In this document: positions 2,341 to 39,831 of the stretch, in pieces | How positions within the stretch are numbered: position 1 is the stretch's first letter | How the letters are laid out: every line of letters begins with the position of its first letter | From: Actinotalea caeni | Lineage (GTDB): Bacteria; Actinomycetota; Actinomycetes; Actinomycetales; Beutenbergiaceae | DNA length: 64,000 nt | Reading direction: 5' to 3' | Assembly: GCF_009733795.1 (NCBI RefSeq) | Contig: NZ_WNXX01000002.1 | Coordinates: 62,001 to 126,000, forward strand | Translations under genes and position numbers: made by a program | Notes under the pieces: model-generated | The model's input: the letters and a program-made list of their open reading frames with translations, nothing else | The model's database searches: none | Told to the model about the DNA's origin: nothing

Positions 2341-3555
2341 TCAGCGCCCCTCGTAGTCGAAGTTCACGAAGACGAGACCCTTCTCGGTGCTGGAGGACTC
2401 CGAGAACTCGGGGTACGGCAGGTCGGGAAGCACCTCGAACCTCCAGGCGCCCTCCCAGGCGTCCAGCACGCCGGCCTGGCACACGTAGACGTCGACGGTG
2501 TACTGGCCGGGCTTCAGCCACAGGTCGCGGACGACGAGTCGCCCCGACTGCGGCTCGCTCGGGTCGAACCACTTGCCGACGAGCCGCGAGTCGCACTGCG
2601 CGATCACGGCGCCCTGGTCGTTGTTGATGTGCGCGGAGACGAAGTAGGTGCCGATGAGCTTCTTCGAGCGTGGCACCGTGAAGTCGATGACGATGTCGTC
2701 GCCCGACTTCACGAACTCGTCGCTCATCGACACGGACTCGAGCCTGACCTTGCCGTTGCCCGGCCGGCTCTTCGGGTCGCTCTGCGCGAGCGCGAAGCTC
2801 TCGAAGCTGTCGCGGTAGGCCTCGAGCGTGCCGTCGACGGTGCCGGAGTAGACCAGGTGGCCGCGGTCGAGCAGCATCGCCGAGGTGCACAGCGCCTGCA
2901 CGGTCTGCAGCTGGTGGCTCACGTAGAGCACCGTGCGGCCGCCGGTGGCGGCCTCGCGCATCTTGGCGATCGAGCGGCGCTGGAACTCCGCGTCGCCGAC
3001 GGCGAGCACCTCGTCGATCGCGAGGATCTCGGTGTCGAGGTGCGCGGCGACCGAGAACGCCAGCCGCACGTACATGCCGGAGGAGTAGCGCTTGACCGGG
3101 GTGGCGAGGAACTTCTCGATGCCGGAGAACTCGACGATCTCGTCGTAGCGGCGCAGGATCTCCTTGCGGGTCATCCCCAGGATCGCACCGTTGAGGAAGA
3201 TGTTCTCCTTGCCCGTGAGCTCCGGGTGGAAGCCCGTGCCGACCTCGAGCAGCGACCCGACGCGGCCGTTGAGCTCGATCCTGCCGCGCGTCGGTGCCGT
3301 CACACGGGTGAGCAGCTTCAGCAGCGTGGACTTGCCGGCCCCGTTGCGGCCGACGATGCCGACGGCCTCGCCCCGCGGGATCTCGAACGAGACGTCGTCG
3401 AGGGCGTCGAAGAGCGTGTACTTCATCTTGCCGGTCGAGCGCAGCCACTGGATGGCCGCCTGCACCGACGTCGAGGGCCGTTCCCCGAAGGCGCCGAGTC
3501 GGTACGTCTTGCCCAACCCCGAGACGACGATTGCGGGGTCCGCCGTGCTGGTCAC
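2341..3555 (-). CDS. ABC polysaccharide exporter ATPase with C-terminal glycan-binding-type domain (Wzt-like)
   Basis: The 404-residue protein has a Walker A GRNGAGKST at residues 69-77, a signature YSSGMY around 157-162 and Walker B EILAIDE at 176-182. This signature variant is typical of Wzt/TagH ATPases. After about residue 250 comes a beta-rich extension (VRLESVSMSDEF, then GDDIVIDFTV) that resembles the Wzt C-terminal domain. In characterised systems that domain recognises a modified chain end before export. The start is GTG at 3555. It sits between a GT4 gene and the permease in the same orientation. The extension suggests the exported polymer carries a terminal tag, which is inference from the Wzt family. 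Confidence 0.92.
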   Translation of the reverse strand: MTSTADPAIVVSGLGKTYRLGAFGERPSTSVQAAIQWLRSTGKMKYTLFDALDDVSFEIPRGEAVGIVGRNGAGKSTLLKLLTRVTAPTRGRIELNGRVGSLLEVGTGFHPELTGKENIFLNGAILGMTRKEILRRYDEIVEFSGIEKFLATPVKRYSSGMYVRLAFSVAAHLDTEILAIDEVLAVGDAEFQRRSIAKMREAATGGRTVLYVSHQLQTVQALCTSAMLLDRGHLVYSGTVDGTLEAYRDSFESFALAQSDPKSRPGNGKVRLESVSMSDEFVKSGDDIVIDFTVPRSKKLIGTYFVSAHINNDQGAVIAQCDSRLVGKWFDPSEPQSGRLVVRDLWLKPGQYTVDVYVCQAGVLDAWEGAWRFEVLPDLPYPEFSESSSTEKGLVFVNFDYEGR

Positions 3556-38474: not shown

Positions 38475-38616
38475 TTTCAACCCACTTCTGCCCCCGGGCG
38501 TGGTTTCAACCCACTTCTGCCCCCGGGCGTGGTTTCAACCCACTTCTGCCCCCGGGCGTGGTTTCAACCCACTTCTGCCCCCGCGTGGTTCCAACCCACT
38601 TCTGCCCCCGGCCGGG
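38475..38616 (+). repeat. Tandem repeat array, left flank of the nuclease unit
   Basis: Five head-to-tail copies of a 29-bp unit with core CAACCCACTTCTGCCCCC begin 6 bp after the nnr stop. Units 1-3 (38475-38503, 38504-38532, 38533-38561) are identical. Unit 4 (38562-38588) lacks two bases. Unit 5 (from 38589) has one substitution and a diverged end. A sixth, decayed copy may follow near 38619. There are no unique spacers, so this is not a CRISPR. The same core occurs in reverse complement on the far side of the nuclease gene. Confidence 0.95.
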
Positions 38617-38718
38617 TTATCAACCCAGCCCTGTCCACAACCGCGCTGTTGCGTCCCTGTCCACAGCACCCTGGCACACCGTCGGCGGCGAGTCGACGGC
38701 TCGTGGCGTAGTGCGGCG

Positions 38719-39702
38719 ATGCACACCTCCGAGCTCGCCAGGATCTTCGCCTCGACCGACGGGGTCTTCACACCCGCCATGGCCGCTCAGCTCGGTTACT
38801 CGGCGCGCACGGTCCGGCGTTGGGTCGAGCGCGGAGTCGCGGTGAGGCTCGCAGGCCGTGCCCTGGTGCCGGCGGGCACGACAGTGACCGTGCGGCACCG
38901 CGTGCTGGCCGCGCACCTGACATGGCCGGACGCGATCGTCTGCTACGTCACGGCAGCGGTGCTCCACGGTCTTCCGATCGACGACGACGGCGAGACGCAC
39001 GTTCTCGTGCCTGACACGCGCCACGCGCTGCGCGGCTTCACGGTCCACCGGTGGTCGGTGAGGCCGACGGCCGTCGTGCGGATCGGTGGTGTGCCGGTCA
39101 CCGACTGGCACACCACGCTCGCCGACAGCCTCGGGCGGCTGCCCGGTGACGACGCGTGGGGACTGCTGGCGTGGATGTGGACGCACGACCAGGTCAGCGA
39201 GCGCGACCTCGCGCTCCAGATCGACGACCGCTACCACCTGTACGGGATCGTGCGGCTGCGGCTCATGCTGAAGGCGGTACGTCAACGCGCACTGAGCGTC
39301 GGCGAGATGCGGCTGCACGACTTCCTGAACGAGCACGGCTTTGTCGGGTGGAGCGCTGACTTCCGGATCGTCGACCAGGGCCGAGTGATCGCGCGAGCCG
39401 ACGTGGCGTTCCCGGGGCAGAGGCTCGTGATCGAGTTCGACGGCGCCGTGGCGCACAACAACCGTACCCGGGCGCGCGACAGAGCCCGTGACGACCGGAT
39501 CGAGGCCTGTGGGTACGACGTCGTCCACGTCACCTGGGCGACGCTCCACGAGCGGCGTCACCTGCTGGCTCGTGCACTCAGGGCGATGCTCGTGCTCCCG
39601 CCGAAGTCGCTCGGTCGGGCCGCACTGGCCGACGCAGTCGCCCGCGGCGGCGACATCCGCCGTCTGCTCGGCGAGCTCGGCATGGCGCGTCCCGCAGCGT
39701 GA
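38719..39702 (+). CDS. AbiEi-type HTH / DUF559 (PD-(D/E)XK, Vsr-like) nuclease domain protein
   Basis: This 327-residue protein starts at ATG 38719. Residues 1-50 form a winged-helix-like segment (SELARIFASTDGVFTPAMAA, then YSARTVRRWVERGVAVRLAG) resembling the AbiEi antitoxin N-domain. The C-terminal third has ARADVAFPGQRLVIEFDG followed by a spaced RARDRARDDRIEACGYDVVHVTW. This fits the D-x(n)-E-x-D active site and Gly-Tyr-x-Val strand of DUF559/Vsr-type endonucleases. No toxin partner gene is adjacent. The gene sits alone inside inverted repeat arrays and splits the nnr-alr operon. Its third-position GC is slightly lower than that of its neighbours, by eye. Confidence 0.82.
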   Translation: MHTSELARIFASTDGVFTPAMAAQLGYSARTVRRWVERGVAVRLAGRALVPAGTTVTVRHRVLAAHLTWPDAIVCYVTAAVLHGLPIDDDGETHVLVPDTRHALRGFTVHRWSVRPTAVVRIGGVPVTDWHTTLADSLGRLPGDDAWGLLAWMWTHDQVSERDLALQIDDRYHLYGIVRLRLMLKAVRQRALSVGEMRLHDFLNEHGFVGWSADFRIVDQGRVIARADVAFPGQRLVIEFDGAVAHNNRTRARDRARDDRIEACGYDVVHVTWATLHERRHLLARALRAMLVLPPKSLGRAALADAVARGGDIRRLLGELGMARPAA

Positions 39703-39726
39703 ATCGCGCAACCACGACCTCGAGCT

Positions 39727-39831
39727 AGCAGTGGGTTGAGACCCTCGTCCGGGGGGCAGGAGTGGGTTGAAACTTGTTCTGGGGGCAGAAGTGGGTTGAA
39801 ACCTGGTCCGGGGGCAGGAGTGGGTTGAGAG
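39727..39831 (-). repeat. Repeat array, right flank of the nuclease unit (inverted)
   Basis: Three clear copies of the core GGGGGCAGAAGTGGGTTG (39751-39773, 39781-39802, 39810-39831; two read GGAGT for GAAGT) and one truncated copy at 39729-39742 lie after the nuclease gene. They are the reverse complement of the left array and are spaced about 29-30 bp apart. The last ends 33 bp before the alr start codon. Confidence 0.93.

Follow-up and report, generated by a model that had tools for sequence, protein, structure and literature searches.

What does a solitary gene for a predicted nuclease do between two arrays of a short repeat that face each other in inverted orientation, at a place in the chromosome where the genes otherwise overlap? 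The gene lies in a 64-kb stretch of actinobacterial DNA, hereafter the window, by which we mean the whole stretch that was analysed. The features of the locus are given below in window coordinates.

38475..38609, plus strand: left array, five units of repeat A (29 nt; core CAACCCACTTCTGCCCCC), with the nnr stop codon 5 nt away
about 38618..38639, plus strand: sixth unit of the left array, degenerate (78% over a 51-nt frame, family D1)
38634..38666, plus strand: two TCCACA boxes, at 38634 and 38660, an upstream feature of most homologues examined
38719..39702, plus strand: gene for a 327-aa AbiEi-Vsr-like fusion protein (P0001), from Pfam, alignment and a structure model
38719..39282, plus strand: AbiEi-like half, residues 1-188, by structural match to 6y8q (Z 11.2) and Rv2827c (1zel, Z 7.9)
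39295..39609, plus strand: Vsr-like nuclease half, residues 193-297, by invariant residues and match to 3r3p (Z 11.0), 1cw0 (Z 10.9) and 3hrl (E 2.9e-8)
39730..39739, minus strand: repeat-unit fragment on the inner side of the right array
39744..39830, minus strand: right array, three inverted repeat A units, with the alr start 33 nt beyond

The initial annotation had described five direct repeat copies to the left of the gene, and three copies with a fragment of their exact reverse complement to the right. All five left copies carry CAACCCACTTCTGCCCCC without a mismatch (38478, 38507, 38536, 38565 and 38592), at spacings of 29, 29, 29 and 27 nt. The three inverted copies and the fragment on the right were also recovered, but only the copy at 39781 is an exact reverse complement, those at 39752 and 39810 each differing by one base. 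TRF gave a period of 29 on both sides of the nuclease gene, and CAACCCACTTCTGCCCCC matched eight times in the window at up to three mismatches, compared with a mean of 0.06 in dinucleotide shuffles; the description of a 29-bp repeat arranged in inverted arrays around the gene was thus correct. Pfam identified the neighbours as NAD(P)H-hydrate epimerase/dehydratase (nnr) and alanine racemase (alr), and the overlaps of acpS with nnr and of alr with tsaE place the unit within a run of overlapping genes, as had been stated. Nor is there an adjacent partner gene: the AbiEii (DUF1814) toxin gene is absent beside the nuclease gene, and Pfam revealed neither a toxin nor a methylase among the neighbours examined. 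No RNA families or tRNAs were found at the locus, and no target-site duplication was seen there by eye.

Pfam assigned AbiEi_4 (E 1.1e-7) and DUF559 (E 8.2e-5) to the window protein, both over the curated cut-off, and MTES_1575 under it. Among 12 aligned family members, DUF559 was matched at E 0.01 in all 12, MTES_1575 in 11 and AbiEi_4 in three. The D..E-x-D nuclease motif noticed earlier corresponds to D228...E239-x-D241, and these residues, together with E196, H246 and D254, are invariant in all 12 members. The protein was modelled with AlphaFold2 (8 sequences; mean pLDDT 88.3, pTM 0.77). In the model, residues 1-188 matched the S. agalactiae AbiEi antitoxin 6y8q (Z 11.2, 179 residues, rmsd 6.2) and Rv2827c (1zel; Z 7.9, 184 residues, rmsd 4.1), and residues 193-297 matched the I-Bth0305I homing endonuclease domain 3r3p (Z 11.0, 95 residues, rmsd 2.7) and Vsr 1cw0 (Z 10.9, 110 residues, rmsd 2.2). 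With Foldseek the AbiEi match reached significance (E 4e-5), the nuclease matches being weak (3r3p E 0.006, 1cw0 E 0.016); a sequence profile matched 3hrl, an endonuclease-like protein, at E 2.9e-8 and 3r3p at E 0.02. Neither an HUH/Y1 tyrosine transposase nor any other transposase family was found in the protein by Pfam, and the NCBIfam signal was limited to a sub-threshold IS630 match in the HTH (E 0.015). As modelled, the window protein is an AbiEi-type, putatively DNA-binding half fused to a Vsr-like nuclease half.

Repeat A is not confined to the nuclease locus. The 4.0-Mb genome of the window (G000) contains 137 copies at up to three mismatches (67 and 70 on the two strands), compared with three for a reversed control pattern. 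At up to two mismatches it contains 115, and six of 58 relatives show one to three stray matches each; repeat A is virtually absent from these relatives. Beyond the nuclease site we mapped 33 clusters (up to four mismatches, after three single four-mismatch matches within genes had been dropped), comprising 21 plus-then-minus arrays, two in the reverse order and ten on a single strand. None of the 33 holds a nuclease gene, and the nuclease relatives in G000 are all located outside them. The repeat thus does occur without nuclease genes, which the initial annotation, taken literally, would count against its reading, and the locus is not a self-contained unit; as REP/RAYT genomes also show repeat clusters without an enzyme gene, the pairing of nuclease and repeat is not refuted by this. 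Two G000 clusters have in common a palindromic repeat of ~70 bp of the GTACGAGCT type (L060, about 3078-3147; L124, about 3283-3352), possibly a third dispersed family of this genome.

Relatives of the nuclease often lie within repeats of their own. A G000 paralogue at 47% identity (G000:C45) is located between inverted 28-nt units with the core TTTCACCGCACTTTG (repeat B). The two closest homologues, both from Pseudactinotalea suaedae (G002, one of two congeners of the window genome), are located between TTTCAACGCACTTTC-like and TTTCAACACGATTCC-like inverted units (families C and D). All four pairings in this closest group therefore agree, with A in A and B in B in G000, and C in C and D in D in G002. 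The pattern TTTCAMCRCRMTTYS, which covers the cores of B, C and D, occurs 96 times in G000, 164 times in G002 and 18 times in G001, and the control 0 times. G001 has no homologue closer than about 30%, so its 18 copies could be relics or could speak against a strict dependence. Further afield, a homologue in Ruania (G016) and one in its congener G019 are flanked by a different repeat, which is present there in 12 and 13 copies and in six other congeners in 0-5. No matching flank repeats were seen at the distant paralogues of G000 and G002 (L070, L108, L109 and L110); L070 (G000:C22:273719), the third and distant DUF559 paralogue of G000, does carry a TCCACAG box. Distant B or C arrays at L120, L121 and L122 enclose ordinary genes (a LacI-type regulator, a sugar kinase and others, by ORF reading), so that two arrays can enclose another gene.

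To see how far this association extends, we turned to the Micrococcales, where 251 of 396 genomes encode at least one family member (E 1e-20 or better). We analysed 78 non-duplicate loci (90 minus 12 duplicates) chosen by homology only, as best matches and a spread of weaker ones; they are part of the listed matches, and in a few cases congeners contribute one and the same locus. The two 350-nt flanks of the gene carried matching repeats in inverted orientation at 32 of these loci and in either orientation at 41 (window locus included), compared with 0 of 122 other genes from these loci (Fisher 3e-21). Relaxing the threshold gave inverted counts of 36 versus 1 (score 16) and 39 versus 2 (score 14). 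A stricter control, made up of solitary genes separated from either neighbour by a predicted 80 nt or more and drawn from the same loci and from 100-kb samples, gave 0 of 92. When left and right flanks were taken from different loci, 23 of 6006 such mismatched pairs reached the threshold, related loci accounting for many. A direct-orientation match was also present at 30 of the 78 loci; because many flanking units are themselves palindromic, the term inverted is not strict for the family. The initial annotation had tied the pairing to flanking repeats in relatives, and here the result was mixed, since matching flank repeats are lacking at 37 loci, among them L143 and L144 (about 40% identity).

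Upstream of the gene, within 350 nt, a TCCACAG box (either strand) was found at 57 of the 78 family loci, compared with 2 of 122 and 2 of 92 control genes. The shorter TCCACA was present at 63 loci, and doubled boxes were most often 27-29 nt apart (19 pairs). These boxes, which resemble the DnaA box, are a better marker of the nuclease family than the repeats on its flanks; expression may be linked to DnaA through them, or they may serve as the protein's own operator.

Several of the flanking repeats are dispersed in the genome that carries them. GTGATCATGCAA is present in 330 copies in G123, 345 in G024 and 286 in G084, and in none of eight other genomes, which include two congeners of G123. 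G123 and G024, each with GTGATCATGCAA beside a homologue, belong to different families, and the G084 homologue lies between one plus and one minus copy. TGTGGCATGTTTT is present in 19 copies in G106 and in none of nine others, one of them a congener. Low-copy repeats were found in G054 (seven), G005 (four) and G018 (three), and in none of 11 others. Dispersal in 100-kb samples of eight genomes was uneven (best 14-mer at up to one mismatch; copies in the genome's own 100 kb/in the other 700 kb): it was clear in G106 only (5/0), marginal in G137 (3/1) and, in G171 (3/3), no better than in the other samples, the remaining genomes giving 2/1 (G049), 1/0 (G218), 1/0 (G303), 1/4 (G063) and 0/0 (G077). 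Together, homologues lying within their own, differing repeats, several of which are dispersed in the same genome, lend good support to the REP/RAYT-like logic that had been proposed for the locus.

We then compared nuclease and repeat similarity among the 35 loci with inverted repeats of score at least 17. With nuclease similarity of at least 250 bits, 5 of 6 pairs had a repeat in common, compared with 1 of 28 at 150-250 bits and 0 of 561 below. Over all 595 pairs no correlation was observed (Spearman 0.013), sharing being confined to close pairs. As some close pairs are orthologous loci, sharing speaks more for nuclease and repeat having diverged as a pair than for repeated independent origin. 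The informative case is the cross-family pair L210-L218, whose nucleases are 52% identical and have GTGATCATGCAA in common. A search of 72,556 plasmid records yielded one weak family match (30.7%, E 9e-6), and a search of 50,697 phage records yielded none.

We next considered the insertion site. Both nnr and alr were found in 14 of 16 relatives, where the gap between them measures 14 to 343 bp (the longest value involving an incomplete nnr match; 76 bp in G001) and is too short for the nuclease gene. By the spacing comparison that had been suggested, the gene lies between nnr and alr in none of these 14 relatives, and is thus not an ancestral gene present there in all relatives. In P. suaedae the same site (L287) is occupied by a two-armed C array, placed directly after the nnr stop codon and without a nuclease. 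The comparison with homing-type elements, also made in the initial annotation, gains from this gene-free array in a sister species and from the nuclease fold shared with I-Bth0305I and Vsr; recognition of the target is putative. Among 13 P. suaedae array loci in the matches listed, L282 and L274 match G000 repeat sites on both sides and L277 on one side, in a comparison that covered part of the G000 B sites; L287 and L121, which had been chosen for other reasons, match G000 repeat sites as well. The repeat family differs each time, indicating that sites have been reused or arrays replaced in place. Between the congeneric genomes G123 and G084 the nuclease segment, of about 1.09 kb, is inverted, whereas the DNA beyond it is collinear on both sides, and the break points lie at the repeats (L210 2891-3984; L286 2979-4071). 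Recombination has therefore used the repeats, for which homologous recombination alone could suffice.

How may these observations be explained? That the nuclease gene is associated with its repeats we regard as practically certain. The nuclease probably recognises its repeat, and it is plausible that the repeats are dispersed by this nuclease. On balance, we favour the interpretation that this is an enzyme-repeat system, in which a solitary AbiEi-Vsr-like fusion nuclease is coupled to a family of short intergenic repeats of its own. AbiEi antitoxins have been described to bind inverted repeats in promoters and to autoregulate (PMC7319586, available part), and the AbiEi half of the fusion would likewise bind the repeat. 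The nuclease half may, less certainly, nick or cut at or beside the repeat or its single-stranded hairpin; TnpA-REP is described as processing cognate single-stranded REPs (PMC8266576, available part). Repair would then copy repeat DNA into permissive gaps, often right after stop codons, and the units would subsequently multiply via local tandem duplication. The nuclease gene would sit inside its own target, like homing genes, and the repeats would be dispersed in trans, as proposed for RAYT enzymes and REPs. We are evenly divided on the broader proposal that these are selfish prokaryotic repeats mobilised by a dedicated AbiEi-Vsr-like endonuclease instead of an HUH enzyme, in several Micrococcales families, each nuclease lineage co-diverging with its own repeat and each gene lying within its own target.

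The strongest rival to an enzyme-repeat system is a domesticated binding factor, whose repeats would be operators or 3'-end elements (serving autoregulation, genome maintenance or transcript ends) and would have spread by slippage or general recombination and not by the nuclease. The autoregulatory DNA binding described for AbiEi proteins (PMC7319586, available part) fits this view, and so does the position of the arrays. The 55 A arrays divide into 34 that face a stop codon, with 25 starting within 7 nt of it, and 21 that face a start codon, none at less than 24 nt; among 43 B arrays 33 face a stop codon, just nine within 7 nt. Two converging A clusters folded into long hairpins (RNA energies, serving as a guide only). 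Moreover, in their variable part, repeat A units are 0.70 alike within one arm compared with 0.34 between clusters, which implies that arrays grow by local duplication. Gene conversion between arms was considered as well and rejected for A, where opposite arms are 0.27 alike and different clusters 0.34 (a value as high as that observed arose in 498 of 500 permutations); the same comparison for B clusters gave 0.65 for opposite arms and 0.60 for different clusters (6 of 500 permutations). An operator role leaves unexplained the 19-345 dispersed copies, the matching flanks on both sides and the invariant nuclease residues, and we consider the domesticated factor unlikely, if worth keeping in mind.

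A conventional transposon with MITEs appears less likely still. The flanks would then be terminal inverted repeats, the protein a cut-and-paste transposase and the other clusters internally deleted copies. Repeat pairs of fixed spacing do resemble miniature elements: in G106 six TGTGGCATGTTTT pairs are 52 nt apart, two of them flanking the nuclease, and in G084 and G123 GTGATCATGCAA pairs are often 69 nt apart. However, in the closest group (G000 and G002) the nuclease gene is present as a single copy per repeat family, the arms of families A-D are variable-length tandem arrays and not fixed ends, and residues 193-297 of the model best match Vsr-type nucleases. Candidate nuclease relics in the middles of A and B clusters were also rejected: the matches to nuclease loci are at most 60 nt long, with a best E of 5.7e-5, and several fall in arrays. 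Such short and weak stretches do not represent deleted gene copies.

More doubtful again is the view that the nuclease gene is a passenger in permissive intergenic DNA, where the arrays would act as ordinary 3'-end elements, either terminators or stabilisers of mRNA. With genes predicted from codon usage, 132 of the 133 repeat A copies examined for position (out of 137) and all 134 repeat B copies examined are intergenic, the arrays facing a stop codon are in the majority (34/55 for A, 33/43 for B), and several intergenic sites carry different repeat families in G000 and G002, all of which would suit such elements. A passenger, however, would not meet its own distinct repeat in each lineage, as observed at 41 of 78 family loci versus 0 of 122 and 0 of 92 control genes and in the four matching pairings from two genomes. 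Very improbable, finally, is the solitary defence nuclease that the initial annotation had offered as its alternative and for which we found no support, with arrays marking self DNA and unmarked DNA being attacked: AbiEi-like PADLOC profiles match the protein and the nuclease fold is of restriction or repair type, but the PADLOC matches are confined to the AbiEi-like half, no toxin or methylase is present among the neighbours examined, and with about 34 clusters in 4 Mb the greater part of the chromosome would carry no mark.

Many bacterial genomes carry dispersed short repeats without a known mover. If the proposed enzyme-repeat system is real, a second, unrelated enzyme class would be tied to such repeats, and REP-like populations would have arisen more than once. 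Part of the DUF559/AbiEi-like genes would acquire a function, and cognate enzyme-repeat pairs would become available for swap tests. The arrays placed right after stop codons also raise a question on transcript 3' ends.

Among known systems, REP/RAYT (REPtrons, REPINs, TIRtrons) resemble the present one in layout: there too an enzyme gene is flanked by copies of a short intergenic repeat, often a palindrome, which is also scattered through the genome concerned; enzymes and repeats change from one lineage to the next, and copy numbers vary. Some RAYT genes, too, have flanking repeats that do not form a repeated family (PMC8266576 and PMC3733652, available parts). The enzyme differs, being an AbiEi-Vsr-like fusion of predicted activity and not an HUH tyrosine transposase, and so does the arrangement of families A-D as tandem 28-29-nt units in two converging arms, commonly with an upstream TCCACAG box among the homologues. 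The system thus appears to work like a REPtron but, as the HUH transposase is absent, is not one. With the AbiEi antitoxins of AbiE type IV toxin-antitoxin systems it shares the fold of residues 1-188 (6y8q, Rv2827c), and known members bind inverted repeats (PMC7319586, available part); it differs in having no adjoining DUF1814 toxin gene, a fused nuclease half and dispersed repeats. The missing toxin gene places it outside the AbiE systems. I-Bth0305I, a homing endonuclease of the EDxHD class, and Vsr share with it the fold of residues 193-297, and as in homing the gene lies between the arms of its presumed target, with a gene-free array at the sister-species site. In contrast to I-Bth0305I homing, there is no intron or intein, there are about 34 repeat sites per genome, and an AbiEi-like half replaces the usual DNA-binding part; membership among homing elements is putative.

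Caulobacter VsrA is likewise a DUF559 nuclease related to Vsr, but its proposed role is in mismatch repair, together with a methylase, and repeats are not mentioned in the available part of that report (PMC12907096). MTES_1575-type Vsr REase domains have been described in a HEPN fusion, where the available part of the source mentions no dispersed repeats (PMC3710099). In the literature searched, which comprised few subscription papers and no bioRxiv, no description was found of an AbiEi-Vsr-like/DUF559 nuclease with repeats, nor of RAYT together with Vsr; neither RAYT nor a nuclease occurs in the available part of PMC12306157. Since the locus lacks a defining feature of both REP/RAYT and AbiE, and membership of other named families is putative, we call it new as an enzyme-repeat system, one whose underlying logic is already known.
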